From Carnobacterium alterfunditum DSM 5972 (GTDB taxonomy: Bacteria > Bacillota > Bacilli > Lactobacillales > Carnobacteriaceae): a stretch of 64,000 nt of DNA. Below, piece after piece: positions 22,901-42,135 of the stretch; position 1 is the first letter of the stretch; each line of letters starts with the position of its first letter. The stretch is taken from positions 1,489,001-1,553,000 of the forward strand of contig NZ_JQLG01000004.1 in NCBI RefSeq assembly GCF_000744115.1, written 5' to 3'. The position numbers were made by a program, and so were the translations under genes. A model generated the notes under the pieces. The model worked only from the letters and a program-made list of their open reading frames with translations, was not told the origin of the DNA and made no database searches.

Positions 22901-22957
22901 TTGACATATTTCGTTTACAAATGTAAACTATAAATATCAAGAAAGATTACATGTGTA
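22901..22957 (+). promoter_or_regulatory. copYA promoter with two cop boxes
   Basis: TTGACA (22901-22906), 17 bases and TAAACT (22924-22929) form the promoter. A perfect cop box TACAAATGTA (22916-22925) overlaps the -10 region, and a second, TACATGTGTA (22948-22957), lies about 32 bases downstream. This is the arrangement used by CopY-family repressors (two TACANNTGTA sites between promoter and copY), so copper releases repression of copY and copA. Confidence 0.9.
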
Positions 22958-22978: not shown

Positions 22979-23404
22979 ATGGTGACAACTAATTCAATAA
23001 AAATAACAGATGCAGAATGGGAAGTCATGCGTGTAGCTTGGGCAAATGAAACGGTTACCAGTAGAGAAATCACGTCCATTCTCGAAAATAAAAAACAGTG
23101 GAAAGCACCTACTATCAAAACATTAATCGGTCGTTTAGTCGATAAAGGCGTCTTACAGACTATAAGAGAAGGGAACAAATTTATTTACTCTGCGGCGGTT
23201 ACTGAAGAAGAAAGTATGGATTCTTATACGAATGATGTCCTTTCTCGAGTCTGTCATAAGCAATCGGGTCATGTTATCAGTAACATGATAGCTGAAGCTA
23301 CTCTAAGCAAGGTAGATATTGCTATGCTAAAAAAACTATTGGAACAAAAAGAAAACACAGCATTGGATGAGGTGCCATGCGAATGCCATTTGCACCATCA
23401 CTAA
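22979..23404 (+). CDS. copY: Copper-responsive repressor CopY
   Basis: A 141-residue BlaI/MecI/CopY-type winged-helix repressor: [23 protein letters not shown] then [20 protein letters not shown] in the DNA-binding half, and a C-terminal dimerisation helix. Two cop boxes precede the gene. In the family, copper displaces zinc at a C-terminal CxCx4CxC site. Here the C terminus is only CECHLHHH (C134, C136, then four His), so one cysteine pair is replaced by histidines. It is followed by copA after 16 bases, one operon. Confidence 0.92.
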
Positions 23405-23420
23405 GAAAAAGAGGGATAAA

Positions 23421-25883: not shown

Positions 25884-26019
25884 AAGATGAGATAAGAGTA
25901 ATTAGTAATAAGGCGTTCATCTAATTTATAGATTTTAATACTAGCTATAAAATAGCCTAGTATAGAAAGACAATGAGATTCATAGTTTTCAAGAGTTAAT
26001 AATAAAGGAGGAAATGAAT

Positions 26020-28101: not shown

Positions 28102-28342
28102 TAAATTCTAAAGTATAGGCTAAAGATAAAAATACGGGCAGTGTGTTCTTGAACAATTTAATTTACTTTGAATATAAGGACACATTGCATTATTAATACA
28201 CTGAAAATTTTTTATAGTCTACTCCAATATTTATAACTAATTTTTTGAAAAGAACACCTATTCAATTTATCTGTTTTAGTTACAAAGGATCCCATTAACA
28301 TACTTTATTTTTAAATAGATACAAAAGGAGGATGCAATAGTT

Positions 28343-29344
28343 ATGACAATAAAAGTAGCAATTAACGGGTTTGGTCGCATTGGGCGATTAGCATACCGTC
28401 GAATCAAAGAATTAAATAGTACAGAATTAGAGGTCGTTGCGGTTAATGATTTAGCTGACATTGAAGACTTGGCTTACTTGCTAAAATATGATACTGCACA
28501 AGGACGTTTCCCATACGATGTAGAGGCTAAGGATAATGTGATTACAGTAGATGGAAAAGAAATCAAAGCTTATAAAGAAAAAGATGCGAGTAAATTGCCA
28601 TGGGGCGAGCTAGATATTGATATTGTACTTGAGTGTACTGGTTTTTATGTGTCTTCAGAAAAATCCAACGCTCATTTAGAGGCAGGAGCTAAAAAAGTGA
28701 TGATATCTGCTCCCACTAAAGATGATGTCACAAAAATTGGCGTATATGGAGTCAACGAGAAATCATTGACGGGGAATGACCGTATCGTTTCCGCCGCTTC
28801 CTGTACAACGAATGCACTAGCATTGATGACAAAAGTATTAGTCGATGAATTTGGTGTTCAAAGAGGACTAATGACAGGTTCGCGTGCCTACACAGCCTCA
28901 CAATCTCTTCAAGATGCTCCTGGTGGCCGCAAGAAACGTGCAGGCGCACAAAATGTTATTCCAACAACAACTGGTGCTGCTAAAGCATTAGGAAAGGTTA
29001 TACCAGAAGTGGATGGAATAATAACAGGGACTTCAACTCGCGTTCCGGTTATTACAGCAGGTTTTGTCGAACTTTATTCAGTACTTGACCAGAATGTGAC
29101 GATTGATGAGATAAATAAAGCTATGAAAGCCGCTTCGAGTGAGGCCTATGGTTATACTCAAGATGAAGTGGTGTCTTCGGATATAGTTGGCGACACTCAC
29201 GGATCTACTTTTGATGCAACTTTGACTGAAGTAATGGATGCAAACGGTGGTCAGCTGGTGAAAACAGTTGCCTGGTATGATAACGAGTATGGGTTTGTTT
29301 CAAATACGATTCGACTACTGGAATATTTTGCGAAACTTGACTAA
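28343..29344 (+). CDS. GAPDH-family paralogue with substituted catalytic His
   Basis: A 333-residue protein aligned end to end with type I glyceraldehyde-3-phosphate dehydrogenase. It has the Rossmann motif INGFGRIGR, the catalytic Cys154 in SAASCTTNA, phosphate-site residues in TTTGAAKA, and the C-terminal WYDNEYGF. The catalytic base His of the HAYT motif is replaced: GSRAYT, Arg181 (codon CGT at 28883-28885). The Arg-containing RVPV motif is in GTSTRVPV rather than GAAQRVPV. It lies between copB and copZ. GAPDH is a known target of copper poisoning in staphylococci, which makes a special paralogue here notable. Whether it is still a dehydrogenase is uncertain. Confidence 0.85.
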   Translation: MTIKVAINGFGRIGRLAYRRIKELNSTELEVVAVNDLADIEDLAYLLKYDTAQGRFPYDVEAKDNVITVDGKEIKAYKEKDASKLPWGELDIDIVLECTGFYVSSEKSNAHLEAGAKKVMISAPTKDDVTKIGVYGVNEKSLTGNDRIVSAASCTTNALALMTKVLVDEFGVQRGLMTGSRAYTASQSLQDAPGGRKKRAGAQNVIPTTTGAAKALGKVIPEVDGIITGTSTRVPVITAGFVELYSVLDQNVTIDEINKAMKAASSEAYGYTQDEVVSSDIVGDTHGSTFDATLTEVMDANGGQLVKTVAWYDNEYGFVSNTIRLLEYFAKLD

Positions 29345-29386
29345 TTCAACAGATGAGGCCCTAAATCTCACGTTAGGGGTATAGAG

Positions 29387-29587
29387 ATGAAAACGTGGAT
29401 AACTATTGCAGGGATAGAGTGTGCAGCCTGTTCAGAAGAAATTGAGGCAGAACTCCTAGCTACACATACCGTAGAAGACGTATTTAATGGCCTACACAAA
29501 AAAATACTCTTTGTTCATTTGAAAAAGGGTGTCACTAAAGAAATATTTTTGAATTCGATGAGCAGGATACCCGTAATGTTAAACTGA
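29387..29587 (+). CDS. Small HMA-like protein with CxxC
   Basis: The 66-residue protein starts like a heavy-metal-associated domain (WITIAGIECAACSEEIEAEL, with the CAAC pair at residues 15-18 in the place of GMxCxxC). The rest is compatible with the HMA fold but diverges, with LHKKILFVHLKKGVTKEIF as the later strand-helix. It lies 43 bases after the GAPDH paralogue and before copZ, behind a weak GGGGTATAG site. Probably a metal-binding chaperone-like protein distinct from CopZ, or a decaying HMA duplicate. Confidence 0.6.
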   Translation: MKTWITIAGIECAACSEEIEAELLATHTVEDVFNGLHKKILFVHLKKGVTKEIFLNSMSRIPVMLN

Positions 29588-29593
29588 GTTATA

Positions 29594-29656
29594 ATGAAGT
29601 ATGAGTGTACCTGCCAGTGTTGTGCAGATATACAGATTGATCTTTCATTGGATTAA
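29594..29656 (+). CDS. Putative 20-residue Cys-rich peptide
   Basis: A short frame starting ATG 29594 and ending TAA 29656 encodes 20 residues, with four Cys in the first ten (CTCQCC at residues 5-10) and an acidic tail. It starts 6 bases after the preceding small gene stops and precedes copZ. The ribosome site is weak (CTGAG). CxCxxC clusters bind Cu(I) in metallothionein-like peptides. It may be a real microprotein or a chance frame. Confidence 0.3.
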   Translation: MKYECTCQCCADIQIDLSLD

Positions 29657-29713
29657 GAAGCTTACTCAAGTTAGAAATTAACTAAAAAATTAAAACGAAA
29701 AGAGGAAGAAATT

Positions 29714-29917
29714 ATGAGAAAAGAAGTATTGGTAGAAGGTATGAAGTGTAAAGGTTGCGCTAATACGGTTCAAGAAAAATTTGAAGCAATAGAAGGTGTA
29801 GAATCAGTAGAAATAAACTTAGAAAGTAAAAAAGTTATTGTAGAAAGCAAAACAAAAATTGACGCAGAAACATTTAGATCTGCTTTGTCAGGAACAAAAT
29901 ACTCTGTAGTTGACTAA
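29714..29917 (+). CDS. copZ: Copper chaperone CopZ
   Basis: A 67-residue single heavy-metal-associated domain with the metal site GMKCKGCANTV (Cys pair about residues 12 and 15) and the family beta-alpha-beta pattern ending VESKTKIDAETFRSAL. It carries Cu(I) in the cytoplasm, passing it to CopA or to CopY. AAGAGGAAG precedes the ATG by a few bases. It is the last plus-strand gene of the copYAB-type cluster; an A/T-flanked weak hairpin (AAGATAAAA to TTTTATCTT) follows at about 29916-29967. Confidence 0.9.
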   Translation: MRKEVLVEGMKCKGCANTVQEKFEAIEGVESVEINLESKKVIVESKTKIDAETFRSALSGTKYSVVD

Positions 29918-30126
29918 GATAAAAATGGACGCTACTATTTTCTGAAAGTAACTACTTTTATCTTTTAAATCTAATGTAATTTGAACAAGAATTGGACATA
30001 TGAATTTTCTTTTCTAGTGAGTTGTCGTGACTTTATTCTAACTGGAAAATTCATTTGTTTCTATTTTTTTGCACAAAAATAGGTGCGAATGAATTTCTTC
30101 ATCCACACCAAAAATTATACAGCCAT

Positions 30127-30194
30127 AAAAAAGACTCCTTGAATGAAATGGACCCTGTGTCAAGGACATTTTAGAATATCAAGGAGTCTTTTTT
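30127..30194. terminator. Bidirectional terminator carrying an IS3 end in its loop
   Basis: Perfect 16-base arms AAAAAAGACTCCTTGA (30127-30142) and TCAAGGAGTCTTTTTT (30179-30194) enclose a 36-base loop. The loop sequence AAATGGACCCTGTGTCAAGG (from 30146) matches the end of the IS3 copy C element with two mismatches. The right arm also encodes the last residues of the neighbouring minus-strand gene. Confidence 0.8.
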
Positions 30195-30826
30195 TCTTGT
30201 TTTACCCATTGTTTCTTTGAAATGAAATACCCTATTATTAACAGAAATTCAATTACTCCAAATACCAATATAAAACTATGCATAAAGAATGCTTCGGGCA
30301 AAGCTAATATAATCGAATCGTTGCTAGGATTGAATAACCAAGCATCATTGTTAAAAAATATTTTATGGAACAAGACAAATAGTGTATCAAAATTGATAAA
30401 CAAAGTGACAATCAATAGTGGCGGTATGATGAATCCCCATTGAAAGAAATGAACAAGTTTCCACATTCCTTTTTTTCTTTTTAGATAGTTTAGAAATAAA
30501 ATAGATCCGATACCGGAGATTACTAAGGTAACGTAATCAAGCAGGAACAACTTTTTCACTTCGAAAAAATGAAATAAGCCTCTTTCAGAGCTTGGAAAGT
30601 CAGACATTTTAAGCTCCGTTATCCAAGGGAAATTTAAGTAATTCATTAATACACTGTAATTCTTTAATATAACCTCTTTTGTCATTCCAATTTCATCTGC
30701 TATGTTCAGATAAGTGATATCAAATGTGTATAGCGGTGTAAAGTTGATGGTAATGGCAATTGATACTGAAAGAATGAAAAAGAATAGACAAAAAAATCCC
30801 AATAAGTAAATGACTTTTGATTTCAT
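30179..30826 (-). CDS. TIGR01906/DUF1461 family integral membrane protein
   Basis: The 215-residue protein has four or five membrane helices (about residues 5-30, 95-112, 122-145, 180-203). An extracytoplasmic loop between the first two contains LYTFDITYLNIADEIGMTKEVILKNYSVLMNYLNFPW, the hallmark of this family. The role of TIGR01906 proteins is not established. It is the second gene after a small His/Met-rich membrane protein, 22 bases apart, and both probably share the promoter region with the paired 20-bp motif at 31150-31207. Its end overlaps the terminator arm. Confidence 0.8.
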   Translation of the reverse strand: MKSKVIYLLGFFCLFFFILSVSIAITINFTPLYTFDITYLNIADEIGMTKEVILKNYSVLMNYLNFPWITELKMSDFPSSERGLFHFFEVKKLFLLDYVTLVISGIGSILFLNYLKRKKGMWKLVHFFQWGFIIPPLLIVTLFINFDTLFVLFHKIFFNNDAWLFNPSNDSIILALPEAFFMHSFILVFGVIEFLLIIGYFISKKQWVKQEKKTP

Positions 30827-30848
30827 GGTTAGTATACCTCGTATCTAA

Positions 30849-31046
30849 TTATCTGTTTAATTTTGATTTCACTGCATGCAGTTCTTCTTTTAATTCTTCG
30901 TTTTTTGTTTTTAATAGTTCTACATCATCTGAAGAGTTCCCACTATGATTATGTTTTTTCCCATGCCCCCCATGCATCCCGGGCATCATAAACATCATTA
31001 ATCCATGCCCAACAATCATAATGATAAAAAATAGAAGAATTTCCAT
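30849..31046 (-). CDS. Small membrane protein with Met/His-rich segment
   Basis: A 65-residue protein with one N-terminal helix (MEILLFFIIMIVGHGLMMFM) running into MPGMHGGHGKKHNHSG and a charged coiled-coil tail (ELLKTKNEELKEELHAVKSK). The Met and His side chains at the membrane surface suggest copper binding. Comparable small proteins occur in Firmicutes copper operons (DUF2933-like; not certain). ATG 31046 has AAAGGATGA 8-9 bases upstream; the longer upstream frame lacks a site and crosses the promoter. First gene of a two-gene minus-strand operon. Confidence 0.75.
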   Translation of the reverse strand: MEILLFFIIMIVGHGLMMFMMPGMHGGHGKKHNHSGNSSDDVELLKTKNEELKEELHAVKSKLNR

Positions 31047-31149
31047 TAAAATCATCCTTTCCTTTATTAAGTAGGTTAGATAAAGAGCTAAACCGTATAT
31101 TTTGACCTTTAGGTACGGTAAACTCTTAACAATTACAGAATAACAAATC

Positions 31150-31207
31150 ATTGTGTGGAAGTTATGTAGAGAGAAAATTTATAGTAACTACATAAAATCC
31201 ACACAAT
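31150..31207. promoter_or_regulatory. Convergent pair of 20-bp motifs, likely response-regulator sites
   Basis: ATTGTGTGGAAGTTATGTAG (31150-31169, plus strand) and ATTGTGTGGATTTTATGTAG (31188-31207, minus strand) face each other 18 bases apart and differ at only two positions. They lie about 105-160 bases upstream of the minus-strand small His/Met-rich gene. The same motif pair occurs before the multicopper oxidase operon at 40512-40649. Confidence 0.7.
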
Positions 31208-31614
31208 TGAATTGTATAGTAGTGAAGTAGGAAACCATATCAATAAAGGGTTCACCAGGATAAACTATTTTATGACTACAACAGGAAAGGTGAGGGAGTG
31301 AATAATTTTCATGGTAATTTTTAGTTGTCGTAATCAATTTTTTTGAAAGCTTCTTTTTTAATTATAATCAAATAAAAAAAGACGTACTTAATCTGGAAAA
31401 TTCCAATAGCTAGTCTCTACTGTAAGAACTTTTAAACTACAATAGAAGACTACTTTAAATAGAGGAAATAGACAGGAATACCCATTGGCATAAGAATACG
31501 GTTTAAAATAATGATAAATAATTTATAAAGGCTATTTGTATAATCTTGGCACAATACATAATATTAAGCCTATGATCGAAAATGAAACCACAAAAATACT
31601 TAATGGAGGAACAT
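31208..31614. other. Intergenic region before the M23 peptidase gene
   Basis: About 400 bases of AT-rich DNA between divergent genes. I see no open frame with a ribosome site. No clear promoter could be fixed, and no cop box is present. The plus-strand peptidase gene starts at its right edge behind a GGAGG site. Confidence 0.5.
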
Positions 31615-32973
31615 ATGCAAAAAAGACTATTAGCCAGTGTGTTTGTTGCTGTTTTAATGATAAATTCAAGTTATTTACCTCTTACAGTAAATGCAGAAAC
31701 GACAGAGGAATTAGAACAGAAAAGACAAACACTTGAAACGCAGTCAACTCAGATAAATAGAGACATCCAAGAAAAAGAAGATCAACTGGGCAGTTTAGAA
31801 ATAGAAAAAGAAACTTTTACGGAAGATACGCAACAATTACAGCTGAAAATTGATGGATTTATTCTACAATTACAAAAAGAAGAAAAAAATTTAGAAGAAT
31901 CGAAAATGAAAATTAAAAAGTTGCAAACAGAAATTGATTCCTTGAAAGAACTTATTTTACAACGTGAAAAAAAATTGAAGTCTCAGGCACGTGCAGTACA
32001 AACAGACGGTAATGTCTCCAATCTAGTAGATGTTGTATTTTCTTCTGGAACCTTCACAGAGTTGGTTGGTCGTATAGGCATTGTTAACCAATTGGTAACT
32101 GCTAATAAAGAAATCGTTATTGTCCAAAAAAATGATGAAAAACTTCTGGAAAAAAATGAAAAAAAAGCAGAAGAAGAGAAATTGGCAATTGAAAAATTAA
32201 AAAGTAGTATTGAAATAAATAAAAGTAATCTCGTAGCTCAAAAATCAGAACTAGATGACAAAATTACTAAAGTGGCTGCAGCTTATGATCTGACAGCATT
32301 AGAAAAAACAGCATTTGTCAAAGAGCAACAAGCAGTTGCTGCCCAAACTAGTATGTTATCAGGCGAATTAGAAGAAAAGCGTGAGAAAATTATTGAAGAA
32401 GAAAATACGAAACAAGCAGCGGCTCAAAAAGCAGCTGAAGATTCTGCTGGTGAAATCATGTCTGAAGAGTTTGAAGAAGAAAGTATAGTCGTTAACAAAC
32501 AAGATAGCTCCATCAGCTCTAATAAGTCTTCACTTGCTGGTTCTAAGAATCCTTCATCTAATGAAATACCTTTGAAAACCAGTAATACTGATTTTATTCG
32601 CCCGAGCAATGGCTATACTACCTCACCATTTGGCTATCGAATCCACCCGATTACTGGCGAGCGTAAGTTACATGGTGGAATTGATTTTGCTGGGGGCGGT
32701 CAAATCGTAGCTGCTAAAAGTGGCACAGTGCTAGTAGCTGGGTACCATAGCTCATTTGGATACTACGTGAAAATTGATCATGGGAATGGGTTTCAAACTC
32801 TTTATGCTCATATGAAGGCAGGTAGTTTGTTAGTTTCCCCTGGACAACTAGTATCACAAGGTCAGCAGATAGGAACAATGGGGACAACAGGAGCCTCCAC
32901 AGGCGTTCATTTACACTTTGAAGTTTACGACAACAACATACGAGTAGATCCTGCGCCGTACTTAGGCTTATAG
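31615..32973 (+). CDS. Secreted M23 metallopeptidase with coiled-coil domain
   Basis: The 452-residue protein has a signal peptide (MQKRLLASVFVAVLMINSSY through VNA-ET, cut after about residue 29). A long coiled coil like PcsB/EnvC follows (about residues 30-270, Glu/Lys/Leu heptads), then a Ser-rich linker and a C-terminal M23 domain. Zinc ligands are visible: His and Asp in HGGIDFA, His in LYAHM and HLHFEVY. Such enzymes cut peptidoglycan cross-bridges or act in cell separation. ATG 31615 has GGAGG 6-7 bases before it. It follows the copper genes and precedes lgt, giving the island an envelope component. Confidence 0.9.
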   Translation: MQKRLLASVFVAVLMINSSYLPLTVNAETTEELEQKRQTLETQSTQINRDIQEKEDQLGSLEIEKETFTEDTQQLQLKIDGFILQLQKEEKNLEESKMKIKKLQTEIDSLKELILQREKKLKSQARAVQTDGNVSNLVDVVFSSGTFTELVGRIGIVNQLVTANKEIVIVQKNDEKLLEKNEKKAEEEKLAIEKLKSSIEINKSNLVAQKSELDDKITKVAAAYDLTALEKTAFVKEQQAVAAQTSMLSGELEEKREKIIEEENTKQAAAQKAAEDSAGEIMSEEFEEESIVVNKQDSSISSNKSSLAGSKNPSSNEIPLKTSNTDFIRPSNGYTTSPFGYRIHPITGERKLHGGIDFAGGGQIVAAKSGTVLVAGYHSSFGYYVKIDHGNGFQTLYAHMKAGSLLVSPGQLVSQGQQIGTMGTTGASTGVHLHFEVYDNNIRVDPAPYLGL

Positions 32974-33086
32974 ATTTAGGCTAAAAGCACTAAAAGTAGC
33001 TCTCAATTATGTAGGTGATTAGCTGTAAATAAGTTTTCCTAAATAGTTGAACATTAGAAAGTAATTTATAAAAAGGAGATTTAAGA

Positions 33087-33953
33087 ATGAATGTATTACT
33101 TGGTGTAATTGATCCTATTGCTATCTCAGTTGGACCGTTTCAGATCTACTGGTATGGTATTATCATTGCTGTAGCAATGTTTGTAGCTATTTCTTTAGCT
33201 ACAAGAGAAGCAAAAAAAAGAGGGCTTAAAGAGGATACAATTATTGATATAGCTTTATGGGCCATTCCGATTGGTTTCGTAGGTGCTCGTCTCTACTATG
33301 TTTTATTTGAATGGGATTATTACCTGCAAAATCCAGGCGAAATCATAGCCATCTGGAATGGCGGAATTGCGATTTATGGCGGCTTGATTGCAGGTGGACT
33401 TACCGTATATTGGTATACAAAGAAAAATGGAATTCCTTTAGCTCTTCTGTTAGATATCTTAGCACCTAGCGTGCTACTGGCTCAATCTATTGGTCGATGG
33501 GGAAACTTTATGAACCAGGAAGCACATGGAGGACCTGTCAGCCGTCAATTTTTGGAAAATCTCTATTTGCCTGAATTTATCATTGAACAAATGAATATTA
33601 ATGGCACTTATTATCACCCGACATTTTTGTACGAATCATTATGGAGCCTATCAGGATTTGTGATCATCATCATTCTACGGAATCGTAAAAATTTGTTACG
33701 ACAAGGGGAAGTAGCGTTAAGTTACATGATCTGGTACTCAACTGGAAGGTTCTTTATTGAAGGCATGAGAACGGATAGTCTATGGATTGGTGATTTTTTA
33801 CGTGTTTCACAAGCTTTGTCTCTTGTCCTCTTCATTGGAGCCATCCTTATAGGGTATCTCCGTAGACAAGTTTATCCCTCAAAACTCTATTATCTAGAAG
33901 GAATGACGGATCTAAGAACTAGTAAAAAGCTTGAATCAGATAAAAAAGTTTAA
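33087..33953 (+). CDS. lgt: Prolipoprotein diacylglyceryl transferase
   Basis: A 288-residue seven-helix membrane enzyme with the Lgt signature GRWGNFMNQEAHG (residues 136-148), the earlier YWYGIIIAVA and NGGIAIYGGLIAG segments, and the later GRFFIEGMRTDSLW. Lgt attaches diacylglycerol to the lipobox Cys, the first step in lipoprotein maturation. A chromosomal housekeeping lgt is expected elsewhere, normally near hprK. This copy sits among copper genes, as in several Gram-positive copper islands, and may serve lipoproteins such as DUF1541. AAAGGAG is 8 bases before the ATG. Confidence 0.93.
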   Translation: MNVLLGVIDPIAISVGPFQIYWYGIIIAVAMFVAISLATREAKKRGLKEDTIIDIALWAIPIGFVGARLYYVLFEWDYYLQNPGEIIAIWNGGIAIYGGLIAGGLTVYWYTKKNGIPLALLLDILAPSVLLAQSIGRWGNFMNQEAHGGPVSRQFLENLYLPEFIIEQMNINGTYYHPTFLYESLWSLSGFVIIIILRNRKNLLRQGEVALSYMIWYSTGRFFIEGMRTDSLWIGDFLRVSQALSLVLFIGAILIGYLRRQVYPSKLYYLEGMTDLRTSKKLESDKKV

Positions 33954-33974
33954 TAAAGAAAAGGAGGAACAGTC

Positions 33975-34208
33975 ATGTCTGAGTGTCTAAATCTTTTTAA
34001 TAGAGGAGGAGTGGGATCTATGATGTTTATGGGATTTTTTTGGATTCTATTGTTGGTTGTGGTAGTGGTTCTGATTGGGAAATTATTTTTCAATCAATCA
34101 AATCAAAGTTTTAATAGGGAAACACCTTTGGAAATTCTTCAGAAAGAATATGCGAAAGGAAATATTTCTGAGGAAGACTATTTGGAAAGAAAGAAACATC
34201 TACAATAA
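33975..34208 (+). CDS. SHOCT-domain small membrane protein
   Basis: A 77-residue protein with one strongly hydrophobic helix (MMFMGFFWILLLVVVVVLIG, about residues 16-35) and a C-terminal SHOCT motif (PLEILQKEYAKGNISEEDYLERKKHL). AAGGAGG precedes the ATG. It lies 21 bases after lgt and is likely co-transcribed. SHOCT proteins of this size are frequent next to copper genes in Firmicutes; function unknown. Confidence 0.82.
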   Translation: MSECLNLFNRGGVGSMMFMGFFWILLLVVVVVLIGKLFFNQSNQSFNRETPLEILQKEYAKGNISEEDYLERKKHLQ

Positions 34209-34224
34209 TATGGTTATAAATAAA

Positions 34225-35893
34225 CCTGAATGATTCATACTTTTTTCAAAAAATAAAAATTAGTGTGTTTTTCACTTCATTCAGGACAGTAGCTTGTTTG
34301 GTTTACTGATTTTACTTCAAATTTACAAAGCACTCATTTTTTTGTCAGGCAATTAAGATTTTTGGGCATACTGACCCCTTGGAATGAGCCATTTTTTTTA
34401 ACTATTGTATTGAGTATGAGTGCTACTCCCATTTAAAATGCTGGATATTCCACAAGATTTTACGAAAGAGTTTCTGATAAACGTGGGAGGAACTGAGTTT
34501 CAAAGAGGTTTTCCTTCCCGAATGAACAAGCTTACCTGCCACTTTAAATAAGAACAAGCGAATGGTTGATACTTGAAAACCTTTGGTTTCTTTCGTAAAA
34601 CAAAGAGTACGCATAAAATTGACCATGTTATAAGCTAGTACGCTCACCATCATGCGTGCATGATTTTCTAAGAAACGAGGGCTGTCGGTTTTATCGAAAT
34701 AAAACCCATTTTTGGCCTCTTTAATATAATTTTCCATGGTTCCTCTTTTAGAATAAGTTTGAAAGACCGCTTCTGCAGAAATATCTTCTGATAAATTAGT
34801 TACGATAAATTCATGTCGAGCAATCAATTCTGTTGCTTCACGCGTAGATTTAATACAAACTCTTCGTGAATGTGACCAGCTCTTCGCTTGATAGAGTACA
34901 GAAGCGTAGTGAACTTCTTTTCTATACCAATCGTGTTGATCATCTATAGAGATAAATTGCTCAGCGATTTTGCCTAATTTGCGATTCGATTTCAATCGAA
35001 TAACATAAAAATTTCGACGTTCTTCACATAGCTCATATAATTCAGGAGTTGCAAAACCACTATCGGCACGCACTAGAATAGAACTTACAGGTACGGTTTC
35101 TTGATAATGGTCAAAAAGTGGTTGGACAAAATCTGCCACACCATTGGATGTGTACACGTTACCAGAACGAAGTTCTGCTTTCAATAAATCACCGGTCAAG
35201 CCTTCAAAGGCAACTAGCGGATGATAGCCATTCGTTTGGTAATGAGCGTTATAATTCGAATTTTCTTGATTCCCGAAGGTATCCGAATGAGTTGAGTCTA
35301 AATCAAAAATCATCTCAGTTGTATTACGTGCAGTCCGTACTTTATCAAGCAGGATTTGATTGACTTCTTGCAATTGGAAAATATTTTCTTGATTTAACCG
35401 ATCCCAAAAGCGAGAAATAGACGGTTGTGAAGCAAGTTGTTCTTTAGCTAATAGGCTCTGGAAAATGGGATCTTTTGATAAAATGTCAGCCGAAGAATCT
35501 GTTTGATAGCCACCAATCAATTGAAAAATAATTTGTTCAATTATCGCCTGATTAGTATGTTTATGATAAAGTCGATTATCATTAATGATGAGGTTTTGTT
35601 TTAAAATATTAGAAAAATTAATGGTGTGCATAAACTCCTTAACTAATATTAACCCGGAATCTGAGGATAAATTACCACCAGAATGTGATACCGAAATGTT
35701 TGAATTGAAAAGTAACCGATTTTCATGTAAAATTGCCATAGAGAGAACCCCTTTCTTTGGTTACGTTTAGGTGATTTAACCATAACAGATTGGGGTTTTT
35801 TTTGCACACCCAAAGGGTGTTGAGAAATCCAGCTTAAACTAGCGCTAGAACAGTTTTTCCAGAGCATTTCAAAAAAAGTATGAATTATTCAGG
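34225..35893 (-). mobile_element. IS1380-family insertion sequence (copy B) with target duplication
   Basis: Ends CCTGAATGATTCATACTTTT (from 34225) and AAAAGTATGAATTATTCAGG (to 35893) enclose an intact IS1380 transposase on the minus strand. The flanks repeat ATAAA (34220-34224 and 35894-35898), a 5-base target duplication, showing a simple insertion. It lies 16 bases after the SHOCT gene stop. Confidence 0.92.
34423..35739 (-). CDS. IS1380-family transposase
   Basis: The 438-residue DDE transposase is the same length as copy A and about 93-95% similar by eye, with intact catalytic segments FDLDSTHSDTFG, LVRADSGFATPELYE and YSKRGTMENYIKEAKNGF. It has the same AAAGGGG ribosome site. No frameshift seen, so it may be active. 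Confidence 0.92.
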   Translation of the reverse strand: MAILHENRLLFNSNISVSHSGGNLSSDSGLILVKEFMHTINFSNILKQNLIINDNRLYHKHTNQAIIEQIIFQLIGGYQTDSSADILSKDPIFQSLLAKEQLASQPSISRFWDRLNQENIFQLQEVNQILLDKVRTARNTTEMIFDLDSTHSDTFGNQENSNYNAHYQTNGYHPLVAFEGLTGDLLKAELRSGNVYTSNGVADFVQPLFDHYQETVPVSSILVRADSGFATPELYELCEERRNFYVIRLKSNRKLGKIAEQFISIDDQHDWYRKEVHYASVLYQAKSWSHSRRVCIKSTREATELIARHEFIVTNLSEDISAEAVFQTYSKRGTMENYIKEAKNGFYFDKTDSPRFLENHARMMVSVLAYNMVNFMRTLCFTKETKGFQVSTIRLFLFKVAGKLVHSGRKTSLKLSSSHVYQKLFRKILWNIQHFKWE

Positions 35894-35930
35894 ATAAAGA
35901 TTATTTAATAAAGTTAATATCTGCTATTAG

Positions 35931-35945
35931 CCTGAATTATTCATA
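35931..35945 (+). repeat. Solo IS1380-type end
   Basis: CCTGAATTATTCATA repeats the terminal 15 bases of the IS1380 elements, 37 bases beyond the right end of copy B and in the other orientation. No transposase follows; the region to 36088 otherwise holds only AT-rich non-coding DNA. Confidence 0.6.
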
Positions 35946-36088
35946 GGTCAAAAATAGCGGTTGTATATTCTTTATTAACTCTCCATTTTGGACAAAAAGG
36001 GTTCTTGCCAGAATTTTTTGTACTTTTCGTGATGAAATGATATTGCCACAATCTTTTCAGAGATCTGTAGTAAAAAAGGGAATATTAA

Positions 36089-36667
36089 AATAAAAAAATC
36101 ACTTTAATAATATCGTCATCAGTGAGTCTCTTGCTTGCATCTTGTAGTCAAGAAGATTCAACAAGTAGTCAAAATTCTTCTCAACAAGAAATTGTATCAA
36201 CGTCACAAGAATCTAGTGAGTCTCAATCTAGTTCTAAAGAAGAAAATAAGGAACAAACAGAATCCTATTACACTTCCGATACCGGAAGTGTAACCAAAGT
36301 AGATGCTCAAACACACTAAGTTGTGGATACGATTGCCATCGATGGCTCCACGCATAATGTACAAATTTCACCTGATGAAAAAATCATTGGTGTAACACAT
36401 GATGATCAATATGCAGTTGTGGCAAATAAAGGTACAGAAGAAAATCCTTCCAATACTGTTTCAAAAGTTGATTTAAATAGTAATGAAGTGGTCGAAACGA
36501 TCGAAGTGGGTAGCGGTACACATGGAATTATCATTAGCAAAGATGATCAATACATCTTTGTCACAAATGCATTCGATGATACGGTCAATGTTATTGAGAA
36601 TGAAACCAGTGAAGTTATTGCCACGGTTGAGGTTGGGGAAACACCAAATGGGATTACTCTGAAATAA
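36089..36667 (+). pseudogene. Decayed lipoprotein with YVTN/YncE-type beta-propeller repeats
   Basis: The sequence reads as a lipoprotein gene with several lesions. The expected start is ATA (36090 region, before AAAAAATCACTT), and one base is missing in the signal-peptide stretch. The frame then resumes as SVSLLLASCSQED with a lipobox, a Ser/Gln/Glu-rich linker and SYYTSDTGSVTKVDAQTH. An in-frame TAA at 36317-36319 (where GAA is expected) interrupts it, and propeller repeats continue (VVDTIAIDGSTHNVQISPDE; VVETIEVGSGTHGIIISKDD; VIATVEVGETPNGITLK). The frame before and after the stop is the same. With only about three repeats it is also shorter than usual propellers. Confidence 0.7.
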
Positions 36668-36786
36668 TTACTATGGTTAAGTTAAACTAAAAAATCAACT
36701 TAAGGATTTCTGAAAAGGGATAAAATAGTCTAACGTTTAAAAATCTTAATTAGTCCTAAATTAAATGAAAAACTTTAGCATGAAGC

Positions 36787-36829
36787 TAAAAAGCGGTTCA
36801 CTTTTATGTAAAGTGAACCGCTTTTTTTG
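36787..36829. terminator. Bidirectional terminator, end of the sensor kinase operon
   Basis: AAAAAGCGGTTCACTTT pairs with AAAGTGAACCGCTTTTT around a short loop with A and T runs on both sides, 8 bases from the kinase stop. Confidence 0.88.
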
Positions 36830-36836
36830 ATGAGTA

Positions 36837-38231
36837 TTATCTTTTGACAGGAAGAATAACGGTAAAAGTAGAACCTTTTCCATAATCACTTTTGACTGTT
36901 ATAGTTCCCTTATGGGCCTTAATAATGGTTTTTACGATCGATAGACCAATACCTTGACCGCCTAGAAGACTATTTCTTGAAAAGTCAGACATATAAAATC
37001 TCTCAAAAATATGATTGATTTCTTTTGGGGAAATGCCTTCTCCAGTATCGGTTACACTCAGTAAAGCTTGATTTTTTTCTTGACTGATTTTTAGTGTTAT
37101 TTTCCCCTCAGAAGGTGTGAATTTAATAGCATTTGATAAAAGATTGGTGATGACCTGACTTATTTTATCCTTATCAGCGGTAATGAATAGGGAGTTACCA
37201 TCTAATGAATAATGAATATTTTTCTTAGCAAAAAGAGCTTCAAAATTAGAAAAAATAGTTTCTGCAAGGACATATAAATCGAAAGATGATTTGTTTAACA
37301 TATCCTGATGATTTTCTATTTCATTAATTTTATCAATGCTTCCTATAAGGCGAGTGATACGGTTCACTTCATCATAACTGCTTTGAAGTCGCTCATCGGT
37401 TACTTCCCATATGCCATCTATCATGGCTTCCAGATTTCCTTTTAATGTCGTCAATGGGGTTCTGATTTCGTGAGAAATATCAGAGGATAATTGATTTCTG
37501 ATAGCTTGTTGATTTTCAAGTTGAATGGAGAGATCATTTACCGATACAATAAGTTCATCTATTTCTTTGATATTCGTTTTTTCAGGAGACGAACTTGAGT
37601 AATCTCCTTTAGCAATTTCTCTTGTAAAGTCTTTTACTCTCACTATAGGCCGACTTATTTTTTTAGCAACCAAAGCAGCAAAAAAGAAAGAAAAAACTAA
37701 CGCTACCATTGCTACTATGATAAAATTGTTTTTCATATCTGCAATAAATGAAGCATCATATTCTGAATAGGCAGTTGGCCCCATATAACTGATAAGAGCT
37801 TCTCCAATTTTTTGCTCATCATTAAATAAAGGAACTGTTTTTTCTATAGGGGTATTTTCTATCGCTCCCATCATGTTCCCCGTATTCGGAGCGTTTCCCT
37901 GCATGTTTTGTTCATTTCCCATCATATCTGAAGACGAAGGACTCCAGAGTAAATTCTTTTCATTGTCATATACTTTCAAGGTAATTGAATTGTGTAATGA
38001 CTCTAAGCCGATGGGATCAAAAGCAGCAGTAGTTGGCCATTCCCCCTTTTCTTCGTAAAGTCTTTCTAAACCAGTGGTATATTCTATTAAATCAGACTCT
38101 TGTCTCTCAGCAACATATTTTGCAAAGTGATTATCCATTAGACTTAGTGTCATCACACTAAATGCGCCAATTATAATGAAAGAAATAGAAACAAAGGAAA
38201 ATATAAACTGCCACTTAATTGTATGATTCAT
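36837..38231 (-). CDS. Sensor histidine kinase with Met-rich extracellular loop (CopS-like)
   Basis: A 464-residue kinase: an N-terminal membrane helix (about residues 6-30), an extracellular domain, a second helix (about 170-190), a HAMP linker (KKISRPIVRVKDFTREIAKGD), then HisKA with the phospho-His in SHEIRTPLTTLKGNLE. The HATPase motifs are N (NLLSNAIKF), G1 (DTGEGISP) and G2 (GGQGIGLSI). The extracellular domain holds MMGNEQNMQGNAPNTGNMMG (about residues 103-122), rich in Met pairs suited to Cu(I). ATG 38231 is chosen for the GGCGGGG site; TTG 38246 is an alternative. It overlaps the response regulator gene by 17 bases. Confidence 0.9.
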   Translation of the reverse strand: MNHTIKWQFIFSFVSISFIIIGAFSVMTLSLMDNHFAKYVAERQESDLIEYTTGLERLYEEKGEWPTTAAFDPIGLESLHNSITLKVYDNEKNLLWSPSSSDMMGNEQNMQGNAPNTGNMMGAIENTPIEKTVPLFNDEQKIGEALISYMGPTAYSEYDASFIADMKNNFIIVAMVALVFSFFFAALVAKKISRPIVRVKDFTREIAKGDYSSSSPEKTNIKEIDELIVSVNDLSIQLENQQAIRNQLSSDISHEIRTPLTTLKGNLEAMIDGIWEVTDERLQSSYDEVNRITRLIGSIDKINEIENHQDMLNKSSFDLYVLAETIFSNFEALFAKKNIHYSLDGNSLFITADKDKISQVITNLLSNAIKFTPSEGKITLKISQEKNQALLSVTDTGEGISPKEINHIFERFYMSDFSRNSLLGGQGIGLSIVKTIIKAHKGTITVKSDYGKGSTFTVILPVKR

Positions 38232-38916
38232 CTTTTTCCCCGCCAAATCGATAGCCCATGCCGTACACTGTCAAGATAAAAAAGGGCTGTCTTGTATTAT
38301 CCTCAATTTTTTGTCGTAAGTTTTTGATATGAGAATCAATGATACGATCAAGAACGTTAAATTCAAGTCCTTTCACGTTTTTTAATAATTGTTCTCGAGA
38401 AAATATTTGTTTTGGATAGGAAGCTAATAGTGTCAATAGTTCAAATTCAGTAGGCGTCAAGATGACTTCATTCTGATTTTTAAAAGCCTGTTTGTTCTCA
38501 GGATAATTTATTAACATTCCTTTATCAAATGACCCCTTAGTTTCAGTTACAACAGGCGAAGCTGAGCGACGCAGAACGGTTTCTACACGTGAAACCAATT
38601 CTTTAGGACTGAATGGTTTTACTATATAGTCATCAGCCCCCATCTGTAGAACGTTTAGAATATTATTTTCTGTAGACTTCGCAGTTAGCATAATAATGGG
38701 TAAGTCAGAAATTTTTCTTATTTTTTGACAAATAACTGTGTCAGATATATCCGGTAACATGTGATCTAGCACGATTAAATTTGGCTGCACCAATTCAAAT
38801 TTTTTCATCGCTTCCGTTCCGTTAAAAGCACGGAATACTTGAAACTTTTTTATAGTGAGATAAGCTTCCACAATATCCAAAATCTTTGGTTCATCATCTA
38901 CAATTAATATTTTCAA
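38215..38916 (-). CDS. OmpR-family response regulator (CopR-like)
   Basis: The 233-residue regulator starts LKILIVDDEPKILD with a TTG start codon at 38916, 7-9 bases behind GGAGGC. The longer ATG reading from 38964 overlaps the oxidase stop and lacks a site. The receiver domain has the acidic pair in VDDE, the phospho-Asp in NLIVLDHMLPD and the Lys in DYIVKPF. The winged-helix domain includes ILTPTEFELLTLLASYP and DSHIKNLRQKIE. It is the middle gene of oxidase-regulator-kinase. Likely target: the paired 20-bp motifs at 31150-31207 and 40512-40649. Confidence 0.9.
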   Translation of the reverse strand: MKILIVDDEPKILDIVEAYLTIKKFQVFRAFNGTEAMKKFELVQPNLIVLDHMLPDISDTVICQKIRKISDLPIIMLTAKSTENNILNVLQMGADDYIVKPFSPKELVSRVETVLRRSASPVVTETKGSFDKGMLINYPENKQAFKNQNEVILTPTEFELLTLLASYPKQIFSREQLLKNVKGLEFNVLDRIIDSHIKNLRQKIEDNTRQPFFILTVYGMGYRFGGEKDESYN

Positions 38917-38960
38917 AATCCTTGCCTCCGTTAATTTGTCTGTAACAATTATTGGAAATT

Positions 38961-40466
38961 TCATTCTACAATTATTTGTCCCATCATCCCATTGTCCTCA
39001 TGTTCAAGAATATGGCAATGGTACATGAAAATTCCCTTTTCTGGAAATTCAACTTCAATCTGAACTTTTTCTCCAGGATATAATGCTATCGTATCTTTCC
39101 ATCCTTGTTCGTTTGCAGGTGGAACTTTTCCATTCCGATCTAGTACTTTGAACTGAACGCCATGTAGATGGAAAGGATGTATCATTCCACCCATCATATC
39201 ATTTGAATTATTTATTTCCCATATTTCTGTGGTACCTGTTTTTGCCTGTAGATCTATCCGTTCCATATCAAATTGTTTTCCATTAATAGCAACCATATTT
39301 CCCATACCGCTGAAGGTTAATTCTTTATCTGGAACAGAAACGCTATTAAAACTAGTTGAAATTTTATTTAAAGTTTCCGGTAATGATTTAATCTCTGGAT
39401 TTATTCCTTCCACAACATTTATGGAAAGGACTTCAGCATTTCCGTTCATTAATTTTACATTATCTCCTTTTTTATAGTCGCTTACATCTACTACAATTTC
39501 AGCTCTTTCACCAGGAACTAATTGAAGAGTATCCATCTGTACTGGTTCATTCAGAAAACCTCCATCAGAGGCAATCTGATAAAAACTTTCCTTACTCGAC
39601 AGATTAAATTGATAATTACGTGCATTTGAGCCATTGACCAGACGTAACCTTATTTTTTCGTTTTTCACCTCTATATAAGGATTGATTGTTCCATTTACTA
39701 ACAGAGTATCTCCTTGTGTACCATCCATATTTTGGATGTCTTGATAATTAAATTGGTTGTCTTCGTCAAAAAAACGGTCTTGAACAATGATTGGAAAATC
39801 ATTGATACCATAATCTTTGGGAAGATCCAATGAATCAGAGTTTTCGTCTTCAACATAAATTAATCCAGCCAATCCGTTATAAACTTGTTCACCAGTACGA
39901 CCTTCAGGATGGGGATGAAACCATAAAGTAGCAGCTTCCTGCATTACTGTGAAATCAACGGTGGCTGTTCCATTTGGTTTAATAGGGCTGTGAGGGCCAC
40001 CGTCAACATTAGAGGGTATTTTTAAACCATGCCAATGAAAAGAAGTATTCTCTTCCAATTTATTTACGGTAGTGAGATGTACATTCTGACCTTTTCGAAT
40101 ACGAATGATTGGGCCAAGGTAAGATCCATTATAGCCGAATGTTTGCGTAGCGTTGCCTTCTTTAAATTGTGTGCCTCCTTCTTGTGTGGCAATAGTATAG
40201 GAGATGCTACCATCTGAGGAAAGGGTGCCTTCCAGCAAAGGAGGCAATGCTAGTTCCTTCGTCTCTTGTTTAGAAGGAACTAATTCCATAGTCACTTCTC
40301 CACCCATGCCCATGTTGGGATTCATTCCCATCAGAGGCGTTCCATTATCTTGGTTAGTGAAAGGATTTGGCGACTGCGTAGAGATTTGGCGGAATAAAAG
40401 GACAGATACAATGGCAAGTAAGAGTAAGGAAATTCCCAAAATAATGGATATAACCGGCTTTTTCAT
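38961..40466 (-). CDS. Membrane-anchored multicopper oxidase
   Basis: A 501-residue oxidase with an N-terminal signal anchor (about residues 4-26) and a Met-rich leader (PLMGMNPNMGMGGEVTM). Three cupredoxin domains follow. All copper-ligand motifs are present: FHWHGLKI, LWFHPHPEGRT, HPFHLHGVQF and MYHCHILEHEDNGMMG (type 1 Cys-His plus Met). Enzymes of the CueO/CotA type oxidise Cu(I) to the less toxic Cu(II) outside the membrane. ATG 40466 has AAGGAGG 8 bases before it. First gene of the operon with the two-component system; two copies of the 20-bp motif lie upstream. Confidence 0.94.
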   Translation of the reverse strand: MKKPVISIILGISLLLLAIVSVLLFRQISTQSPNPFTNQDNGTPLMGMNPNMGMGGEVTMELVPSKQETKELALPPLLEGTLSSDGSISYTIATQEGGTQFKEGNATQTFGYNGSYLGPIIRIRKGQNVHLTTVNKLEENTSFHWHGLKIPSNVDGGPHSPIKPNGTATVDFTVMQEAATLWFHPHPEGRTGEQVYNGLAGLIYVEDENSDSLDLPKDYGINDFPIIVQDRFFDEDNQFNYQDIQNMDGTQGDTLLVNGTINPYIEVKNEKIRLRLVNGSNARNYQFNLSSKESFYQIASDGGFLNEPVQMDTLQLVPGERAEIVVDVSDYKKGDNVKLMNGNAEVLSINVVEGINPEIKSLPETLNKISTSFNSVSVPDKELTFSGMGNMVAINGKQFDMERIDLQAKTGTTEIWEINNSNDMMGGMIHPFHLHGVQFKVLDRNGKVPPANEQGWKDTIALYPGEKVQIEVEFPEKGIFMYHCHILEHEDNGMMGQIIVE

Positions 40467-40511
40467 AATGCTTCCTCCTTGATTTTCTTGTTTGATATAG
40501 TTTATCATTTA

Positions 40512-40649
40512 ATTGTGTAGGTTTTATGGATATGGAGAGGAGCCTTATTTTTTTAAATAGGCAGAAGACCGATTTCTTTAGGAATACTAATTAAAGCCTT
40601 CAAAAAAACTAGTATAAACTATTTGTTTTCTCCATATTGTCTACACAAT
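40512..40649. promoter_or_regulatory. Second convergent pair of the 20-bp motif, before the oxidase operon
   Basis: ATTGTGTAGGTTTTATGGAT (40512-40531, plus strand) and ATTGTGTAGACAATATGGAG (40630-40649, minus strand). They match the pair at 31150-31207 at ATTGTGTRGRNNTTATGKAG with one or two differences. The first lies 46 bases before the oxidase start codon; the second may serve the oxidase or the divergent, decayed DUF1541 gene. Confidence 0.68.
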
Positions 40650-40851
40650 GATGCGTTATCTTGATAGTATAGATTTATAGAATTGGAGGTATGCCGAGTA
40701 GTAAAAAGTAGTAGGTGCTATTTTTTCGTTCAGCGTGCCAATCGACAATTCGCAAGCTCTATAAGGCAAAAATAACTAAAAAAGGATAGCTTTTGCTAAC
40801 TTTGCTTATCTCTTAATCAAGTTAGAAGAATTAGAAAGAATGTAAGAAAAA

Positions 40852-41340
40852 ATGAATAAAAAAATAATTGGAACTGGAATACTTTCCTTTGTTTCTCTAA
40901 CGATGCTCTCCGCGTATACTCCGGTTCAAGTAGAGGTAAAATCGGAGGCCTCTGTTCAGGCACATCAAATGAGACATCATGAAAATCATGGTCAACATAT
41001 CAGCGAATATGCATCTCAAAATAAGGGAAGTCGTACTAACCATCACGGTTTAGCTGTCAGCAATTACAACAAATTATACAATTATGAAATTGTACCCGCA
41101 GACATAGAGCCAGCAATGGATTCAACGTACAATCCTGGTGAAGAAGCAATCATTACGAAAGACCATATGCCTGGAATGATAGGTGTGGTGTTCACTCATA
41201 AATTGTAGGGGACTTTTTATACCCATGCGTATTCCGTAACCTACTATCCTACCGATGGCGGAGAGGTGGCCCGAAATCACAAGTGGGTGACTGACCACGA
41301 ATTAGCACCTGTTGCTGATGAAACGGACATGAAGGAGTAA
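40852..41340 (+). pseudogene. Decayed YdhK/DUF1541 gene
   Basis: The frame starts MNKKIIGTGILSFVSLTMLS with AYTP where a lipobox Cys would be expected (TAC for TGC). A His-rich linker follows (HQMRHHENHGQH, NHHG), then the DUF1541 motif TKDHMPGMIGVVFTHKL and an in-frame TAG at 41206-41208. The same frame continues with YSVTYYPTDGGEVARNHKWV and ELAPVADETDMKE to TAA at 41340. Thus the lipobox is lost and a nonsense codon splits the domain. A truncated 118-residue product could be made. It diverges from the oxidase operon; the intact paralogue is at 22075-22710. Confidence 0.78.
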
Positions 41341-41523
41341 CACGCCGGTTAATGTAGGGAGAAATAGATGCACATAGGCTACTTTATAGGCGAAGGGACT
41401 ATGTGCATTTCTTTGATAAATGGACCTTAGAGGGAAAATTTTTTTGGTTAACGAATTGCAAAAATTGTAGAAACTCCTTCAAACGATTCGTAAGAGGGTG
41501 TAAGATAGATAGGAGGGTTACAA

Positions 41524-42135
41524 CTGAATATTATTGTAATGGGCATGCCAGGCTCGGGTAAGGGAACGCAAGCGGAGAGAACCGCAGCTACCTATCAGAT
41601 TCCGCATATCTCTACAGGAGATATCTTCCGTTCCCTCGCTCAGAGTAAGAGTCCGATTGGTTTAGAAGCCCAAACATATATGGATAAGGGTAATCTGGTA
41701 CCAGATGGATTGGTGAATAAGATTCTATGGGATCGGCTGGGAGAGAAGGACACGGTAAAAGGCTTCGTTTTGGATGGGTATCCGCGAACCTTGTCACAAG
41801 CAGAAGCGCTGGAAGTATACTTGCAGAGCAAGGGAGTACCATTGGATGCTGCCCTTTATCTCGCAGTTGGAAAGCAGGAATTACGGAAAAGGTTAGAGAA
41901 ACGACTCCATTCCCCTTCCGTCTCTCCTGATTTCCCTGAGAGGGGTGAGAGTCATTCCTCCCGCGTTGATGACCAATCAGAAGTCGTGGAAAGACGGCTA
42001 AAAGTGAGTGAGTCTGAAGTAGAAGCACTCTTACACTTCTATCAGGGATTGGGAATCGTTTCTATCGTAGATGGGGAGAAGGAACCTGACATTGTGTTTG
42101 CAAAGATACAAGAATCCCTTCAATTCCATTCTTGA
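41524..42135 (+). CDS. Adenylate kinase paralogue with shortened LID
   Basis: A 203-residue kinase if translation begins at CTG 41524 (reading NIIVMGMPGSGKGTQ), 6 bases after AGGAGGG. The first ATG (41539) would remove the first beta strand before the P-loop GMPGSGKGT. Other motifs: ISTGDIFRS, GFVLDGYPRTLSQAEAL and the DDQSEVVERRL of the LID/core hinge. The LID is about 20 residues shorter than usual and has neither the four-Cys zinc site nor the common HPxSGRxYH pattern. Nucleotide use is clearly more GC-rich than that of the neighbours, a sign of transfer. A housekeeping adk is expected in the ribosomal-protein operon elsewhere. Its role in a copper island is unclear. Confidence 0.75.
   Translation: MNIIVMGMPGSGKGTQAERTAATYQIPHISTGDIFRSLAQSKSPIGLEAQTYMDKGNLVPDGLVNKILWDRLGEKDTVKGFVLDGYPRTLSQAEALEVYLQSKGVPLDAALYLAVGKQELRKRLEKRLHSPSVSPDFPERGESHSSRVDDQSEVVERRLKVSESEVEALLHFYQGLGIVSIVDGEKEPDIVFAKIQESLQFHS

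Follow-up and report, generated by a model that had tools for sequence, protein, structure and literature searches.

Back-to-back promoter boxes predicted to serve an envelope copper regulon in Carnobacterium alterfunditum and related bacteria

The copper island of Enterococcus faecalis is described as carrying cueO, cusRS, lgt, a gene for an integral membrane protein, tcrYAZB and an adenylate kinase gene, with cueO probably under the control of the adjacent two-component system (PMC4511184). In Listeria and Enterococcus, the sections consulted of two further studies report Lit2 and Lgt2 to be encoded on a mobile copper element and to be copper-induced, and the induced enzymes to alter lipoprotein acylation, which yields weaker Toll-like receptor ligands (PMC8275575, PMC8689077). 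Here we describe a related island in a stretch of 64,000 nucleotides from Carnobacterium alterfunditum DSM 5972 (hereafter the window; C4:1489001-1553000 of a 2.6 Mb genome), in which four copies of a promoter-like box stand before the genes for a multicopper oxidase with its two-component system, for Lit2 and for Lgt2. The box is predicted to be the target of that two-component system.

The original prediction placed four copies of a 20-bp motif at 31150-31169 (+), 31188-31207 (-), 40512-40531 (+) and 40630-40649 (-), and all four were recovered at these coordinates and on these strands, the first two without mismatch and the last two with one mismatch each. At up to three mismatches they are the only matches in the window, and none of 100 dinucleotide shuffles of the window reached four (mean 0.41, maximum 3), which bears out the claim that such a match is unlikely by chance. 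The 20-mer was dropped as the unit of analysis because the way it is oriented obscures the promoter geometry and because, taken alone and loosely, it is not specific at genome scale: at up to three mismatches it occurs in 26 places in the whole genome, 17 of them at three mismatches, compared with 7 for the backwards control. Three of these 17 places were inspected (L013, L014 and L015), and each falls inside an open frame whose stop-to-stop length is between 209 and 415 residues.

Read outward, each site is a direct repeat, CTMCATA-N4-CYACAYA, with an 11-bp period, and a -10-like hexamer follows after a gap of 9 bp. The boxes thus read outward to divergent genes, and what had been described as facing pairs are back-to-back divergent promoters: the geometry of one site per strand stands, and its meaning changes, as the boxes of a pair point away from each other, each to its own divergent gene. 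In PhoB-type class II activation, a direct repeat of 11-bp period occupies the -35 position, about 10 bp before the -10 element. The boxes show the direct repeat of about 11-bp period found at OmpR/PhoB-type sites, as well as the fixed spacing to a -10 and the lack of a proper -35 that mark PhoB-type class II promoters; a promoter scan found no -35/-10 pair using the four hexamers in the outward direction. As judged from the sequence, this layout is that of a putative activator site standing in for the -35 element.

The -10 at 9 bp was first noticed by eye at the window and own-genome loci and was then tested in a scan of 67 loci (the window, L009-L011, seven plasmid regions and 56 genome regions). 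The box alone was searched at up to one mismatch, the -10 was not used in the search, and gaps of 0 to 33 were compared. Among the 85 distinct sites obtained (44 exact and 41 with one mismatch), 75 match TATAAT in at least 4 of 6 positions at a gap of 9, compared with 23 at the next best gap. The same gap leads in both classes (39/44 exact and 36/41 one-mismatch sites; best other gap 10/44 and 14/41). When the sites were grouped by the similarity of their flanks, 37 of the 43 groups had the hexamer at a gap of 9 and 14 at the next best, and shuffled flanks gave 12% at a single gap.

Adding the -10 to the box (CTMCATA-N4-CYMCAYA-N9-TANNNT, the extended pattern) gave 6 exact matches in the C. 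alterfunditum genome. The number rises to 9 when one mismatch is allowed and to 11 when two are allowed, where the backwards control has 4; the fixed position of the -10 makes the motif specific. Island-type genes or their remnants adjoin eight of the nine sites at up to one mismatch, four of the eight being those of the window. A genome scan with many sites unrelated to copper genes had been named in advance as a refutation, and this was not the outcome. The two-place regulon first proposed needs enlarging: both places carry boxes, and another four are found elsewhere in the genome, one of them before a second oxidase-regulator-kinase operon. Its regulator is about 85% identical to that of the window and its kinase 91%, so that two regulators rather than a single CopR-like one could bind, the proposed type of regulator being retained. 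The ninth extended match, C4:43145, lies within a 209-residue open frame; neither it nor C4:2131943 was counted as a box member, for want of a -10. The latter place (L012 6944-6961) has a good direct repeat with no -10 at the right place and lies between HAD-like and esterase-like genes (named by eye). L010 6476-6984 (from C4:993475) holds a decayed second island copy, in which a box with a good -10 is followed by lgt and SHOCT remnant pieces that are 72 and 63% identical.

Next to this conservation of layout stands the distribution of the box over 395 Lactobacillales genomes. The regulator was scored as present at an E-value of 1e-50 or better, which gave 51 genomes, four of them at only 41-44% identity. 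A core pattern, TRTGTRGNNNTTATGKAG, was fixed after the own genome and the seven plasmid loci were known, and the extended pattern also after the regulator loci were known; the core pattern is therefore the cleaner test of co-occurrence. It was found in 27 of the 395 genomes, in 21 of the 51 with the regulator and 6 of the 344 without it (Fisher p 5e-16), or in 20 of 50 and 6 of 344 with the own genome left out (p 3e-15). The extended pattern was found in 28 genomes, 25 of 51 with and 3 of 344 without the regulator (p 3e-22), and gave 2 backwards matches (counted by eye). In two of the three regulator-negative genomes with an extended box (G101 and G133) the sites precede an M23/PcsB gene like that of the window, and in the third (G117) the -10 is weak.

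The association does not reduce to the neighbouring genes. Among the 75 genomes that carry DUF1541, the extended box is present in 21 of the 32 that have the regulator and in none of the 43 that lack it (core pattern, 18/32 and 1/43), for which reason we rejected the idea that the box merely follows DUF1541. That it merely follows lit was likewise rejected: relatives of lit occur in 338 of the 395 genomes, compared with 28 for the extended box, and no extended box is listed near the second lit relative of the own genome (C4:1599656-1600288, outside the island, 57% identical to the window's lit2). Within the genus of the window, the box is found in all three genomes with the regulator and in none of the three without it, and all six have DUF1541 and Lit.

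The box pair is also kept on plasmids. The closest named relative is a plasmid of C. inhibens (regulator 89.7% identical, Lit 94%), and the pair before lit2 is retained there and on plasmids of E. hirae, E. durans, E. lactis and Lc. raffinolactis. On the E. faecalis plasmid the pair is degenerate, with two mismatches per box and the 9-bp gap kept in both, and on the Listeria plasmid the lgt-facing box is retained at this stringency. The Aerococcus plasmid pT4302 has lit2 with no box before it; this plasmid is not among the regulator carriers. A recombinase gene just upstream of lit2 makes it a weak case. In another genus, boxes precede DUF6803 membrane proteins that have a small membrane protein encoded divergently beside them, as well as small His-rich secreted proteins (L243 6408-6902, L245, L247, L248 and L249; L242, L244 and L246).

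We consider it highly probable that the four boxes of the window are promoter boxes through which the OmpR/PhoB-family regulator encoded beside the oxidase would activate an envelope copper regulon. In substance this agrees with the proposal that a CopR-like regulator binds the sites and controls its own operon together with distant membrane-protein genes; it draws on the 11-bp direct repeat, on the recurrence of the box beside the same genes in other genera and on the co-occurrence of the core pattern with the regulator. The regulator has the receiver and winged-helix Trans_reg_C domains of its family, and the recognition helix ID[STV]H[IV]KN is present in all 63 aligned relatives. The genome encodes nine OmpR-type regulators, and only the two oxidase-linked ones have this helix; the two paralogues may share the boxes. 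In the proposed mechanism, the kinase would sense extracytoplasmic copper and presumably phosphorylate the regulator, which would bind CTMCATA-N4-CYACAYA as a head-to-tail dimer. With the repeat replacing the -35 and ending 9 bp before the -10, RNA polymerase would be recruited much as by PhoB, and back-to-back boxes would let one region drive two divergent operons. The presence of the oxidase and of the kinase-regulator pair itself in the regulon would amount to positive feedback, Lit2 and Lgt2 would change lipoprotein acylation, and the M23 wall hydrolase, the small His/Met and SHOCT-like membrane proteins and the YdhK/DUF1541 proteins would be further members.

The pumps of the island appear to belong to another circuit. 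The copY gene (22979-23404) is 86% identical to an annotated CopY/TcrY repressor gene product of C. inhibens, and the names copY, copA, copB and copZ (22979-29917) rest on similarity to annotated genes of C. inhibens. The window has four cores of the cop box, TACANNTGTA: two immediately precede copY (22916 and 22948), and the others are at 11639 and 13249. This agrees with the prediction that CopY controls the pumps, and CopY would govern the pump operon separately. The arrangement suggests two separate circuits on one mobile island, CopY for efflux and the two-component system for envelope protection.

Several observations weigh against our interpretation. The core pattern gave 12 backwards-control matches compared with 58 forward ones (counted by eye). 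The exact extended box is absent from 26 of the 51 regulator-positive genomes, and among those that have no DUF1541 it occurs in only 4 of 19. The 85 sites of the spacing scan have a partly shared ancestry on a mobile island, do not amount to 85 independent events and come from loci picked by regulator homology. Some relatives of the regulator at 48-55% identity are paired with variant half-sites (one half being CTCCATT or CCCCATA, for instance), and at some regulator loci no site is seen among the matches listed. A search of genome contigs with the regulator returned relatives at 49% identity or less, and 4 of the 80 loci obtained had a box at up to one mismatch, three of them with a -10. A paralogue of the regulator at 48-49% identity occurs with a related box variant (first half CCCCATA or CTCCATA, often then an ACTT-CCA spacer) near DUF1541-like genes, at L144 11818 and 14641, L194 9526, L195 2820 and L196 193, 3149 and 3885, and is perhaps part of a sister circuit.

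Another factor could bind the boxes, for example a repressor of CopY/BlaI type or any of the remaining seven OmpR-type regulators of the genome. In favour of such a factor, and against our interpretation, a gene of BlaI/MecI/CopY type is found within the lit2 operon of the E. faecalis and Listeria plasmids, where it separates lit2 from the oxidase gene. We regard it as very unlikely: none of the four TACANNTGTA cores of the window falls at any of the four sites, which bears out the claim that these do not resemble cop boxes and led us to reject reading them as such; the seven other regulators lack the common recognition helix; and the box tracks this regulator over the 395 genomes, also within the DUF1541 carriers. 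A different possibility is that the boxes are functionless DNA inherited with the island. The island is mobile, with plasmid copies and, in the same genome, a second operon and a decayed copy, and the box plus -10 is identical over 33 bases in two genomes of different families (G065 and G153), yet the flanks diverge into 43 groups while the boxes stay and the 9-bp spacing is kept, and in other genera the boxes precede other genes such as those for DUF6803 proteins. We find this explanation extremely improbable.

Finally, the regulator might bind and the signal be something other than copper itself, such as general envelope stress or another metal, or the regulator might repress. Here the evidence on the sensor counts against us. 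The kinase sensor has a Met-rich stretch (7 Met in 135 residues) that is not conserved: the Met count in nine relatives ranges from 1 to 10, one relative having been scored on a piece outside the sensor. The stretch was for that reason rejected as a general proof of copper sensing. The regulator and the kinase also miss the cut-offs of the heavy-metal models TIGR01387 (CopR/CusR/SilR type; 125.8 bits against 279.2) and TIGR01386 (CopS/CusS/SilS type; 195.3 bits against 292.55), and the best-scoring solved relative is BaeR, by name an envelope-stress regulator. Copper is nonetheless favoured by the multicopper oxidase in the operon, by the adjoining copper pumps and by the copper induction of lit2 with lgt2 reported in the parts consulted of the published work (PMC8275575, PMC8689077), and a box that replaces the -35 fits activation rather than repression. 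A non-copper signal or repression is therefore unlikely in our view, and activation by the oxidase-linked regulator in response to copper is the reading that we retain.

Table 1 Predicted promoter boxes and associated genes (window coordinates; C4 positions lie outside the window)
Feature	Position	Strand	Remarks
Promoter box 1	31137..31169	-	Repeat 31152-31169, 9-bp gap, TATTCT 31137-31142; exact to box plus -10; toward small His/Met protein and lit2
Promoter box 2	31188..31220	+	Repeat 31188-31205, 9-bp gap, TATAGT 31215-31220; exact to box plus -10; toward M23-lgt-SHOCT
Promoter box 3	40499..40531	-	Repeat 40514-40531 (one mismatch), 9-bp gap, TAAACT 40499-40504; toward oxidase-regulator-kinase
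Promoter box 4	40630..40662	+	Repeat 40630-40647, 9-bp gap, TATCTT 40657-40662; exact to box plus -10; toward truncated YdhK-like gene
lit2, Lit/TIGR01906 lipoprotein intramolecular transacylase	30179..30826	-	PF07314 181.4 bits (cut-off 24), TIGR01906 169.5 bits (cut-off 74.8)
Small His/Met-rich membrane protein	30849..31046	-	Start set at 31046, downstream of promoter; C. inhibens relative 91% identical; no family match
M23 peptidase, PcsB-like coiled coil	31582..32973	+	PF01551, PF24568; start may be 31615 (by eye)
lgt2, prolipoprotein diacylglyceryl transferase	33087..33953	+	TIGR00544 233.3 bits, PF01790
Small SHOCT-like membrane protein	33975..34208	+	No family match
Sensor histidine kinase	36837..38246	-	PF00512, PF02518, PF00672
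OmpR/PhoB-family response regulator, proposed binder	38215..38964	-	PF00072 91.4 bits, PF00486 89.5 bits, both above cut-off
CueO-like multicopper oxidase	38961..40466	-	Three Cu-oxidase Pfam domains
Truncated relative of YdhK-like (DUF1541) gene	40852..41208	+	118 residues; no family match alone; adjoins adenylate-kinase gene
Two cop-box cores before copY	22916..22957	.	Other copper circuit
Extended box (L009)	C4:947062		Before intact YdhK-like gene, then two small SHOCT-like genes
Extended box (L010)	C4:993475		Beside lgt and SHOCT remnants
Extended box (L011)	C4:1641463		SHOCT-like gene
Extended box (L011)	C4:1645715		Second oxidase-regulator-kinase operon

The genes around the boxes are listed in Table 1. 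The targets first named, the small His/Met protein with the TIGR01906 gene and the oxidase operon, are among them, and the list was incomplete: the M23-lgt-SHOCT genes and the truncated YdhK-like gene, both on the plus strand, had been missed. An intact YdhK-like relative with its own box is found at L009 5969-6874 and has two DUF1541 stretches. The membership of the membrane protein in TIGR01906 was confirmed and its label refined to a Lit-family lipoprotein transacylase; it scores below the cut-off of the Lit equivalog NF051877 (118.4 bits against 400), as does the oxidase for the CueO equivalog NF008205 (443.4 bits against 525). The start of the oxidase was taken as 40466 and not 40508 because the predicted -10 is at 40499-40504. 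The SHOCT-like label of the small membrane protein after lgt2 is our presumption, family searches having given no match.

About 390 untranslated bases (31221-31614) separate the predicted -10 from the M23 gene. The length is similar in C. inhibens, and the leader is much shorter in other genera among the matches listed; an Rfam search of 28000-42000 gave no match. Copies of a DDE transposase (PF13701) adjoin the copper genes at 34423-35739 and 19268-20584 in the window and at L009 8573-9889, and those at 34423 and in L009 look identical. Two adjoining short frames at 36122-36667 seem by eye to be what is left of a cytochrome D1-like gene, which is still present at the corresponding position in C. 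inhibens.

The island and the copper-induced lit2 are already published. As far as the comparison of sequences and reports indicates, the box is apparently unreported and its target set unusual: a literature search, outside which the original lit2 paper fell, turned up neither this box nor control of lit2/lgt2 by a two-component system. We cautiously favour, at a likelihood a little above even, the broader reading that a regulon dedicated to the envelope copper response is carried on Listeria plasmids as well as on mobile islands and chromosomes of the Lactobacillales, and that one two-component system and its box would switch on the oxidase, Lgt2 plus Lit2 and the wall hydrolase. If this is true, surface copper sets off a single response that changes both the chemistry of lipoproteins and the processing of the wall, apart from the efflux controlled by CopY. 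The box and the regulator together make the control of copper-induced lit2/lgt2 directly testable, and the box is a searchable pattern for finding the regulon.

The repeat layout is the same as in PhoB-type class II promoters, with another half-site here and two back-to-back boxes for divergent operons. CopY/TcrY regulation through cop boxes likewise serves this island, at the pump genes; it differs in its operator TACANNTGTA, which is sited before copY and not at the four boxes. The E. faecalis cueO-cusRS-tcrYAZB island has the same gene set, and the sections of its description available to us describe neither a binding site nor a promoter, and no regulon extending past cueO (PMC4511184). The Listeria and Enterococcus lit2/lgt2 are the same mobile, copper-linked enzymes, for which the available parts of the two reports name no regulator or box (PMC8275575, PMC8689077). 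The closest regulatory parallel that we consider is CopRS of Corynebacterium glutamicum, in the portion of its description consulted: it is also a copper two-component system, whose regulator binds a direct repeat of 11-bp period between divergent genes and activates operons, among them its own and that of a multicopper oxidase (PMC3140484). It differs in its half-site, TGAAGATTT, in having targets without Lgt/Lit enzymes as far as described, and in the single site genome-wide that is reported to be bound, compared with the eight predicted boxes of C. alterfunditum (PMC3140484).

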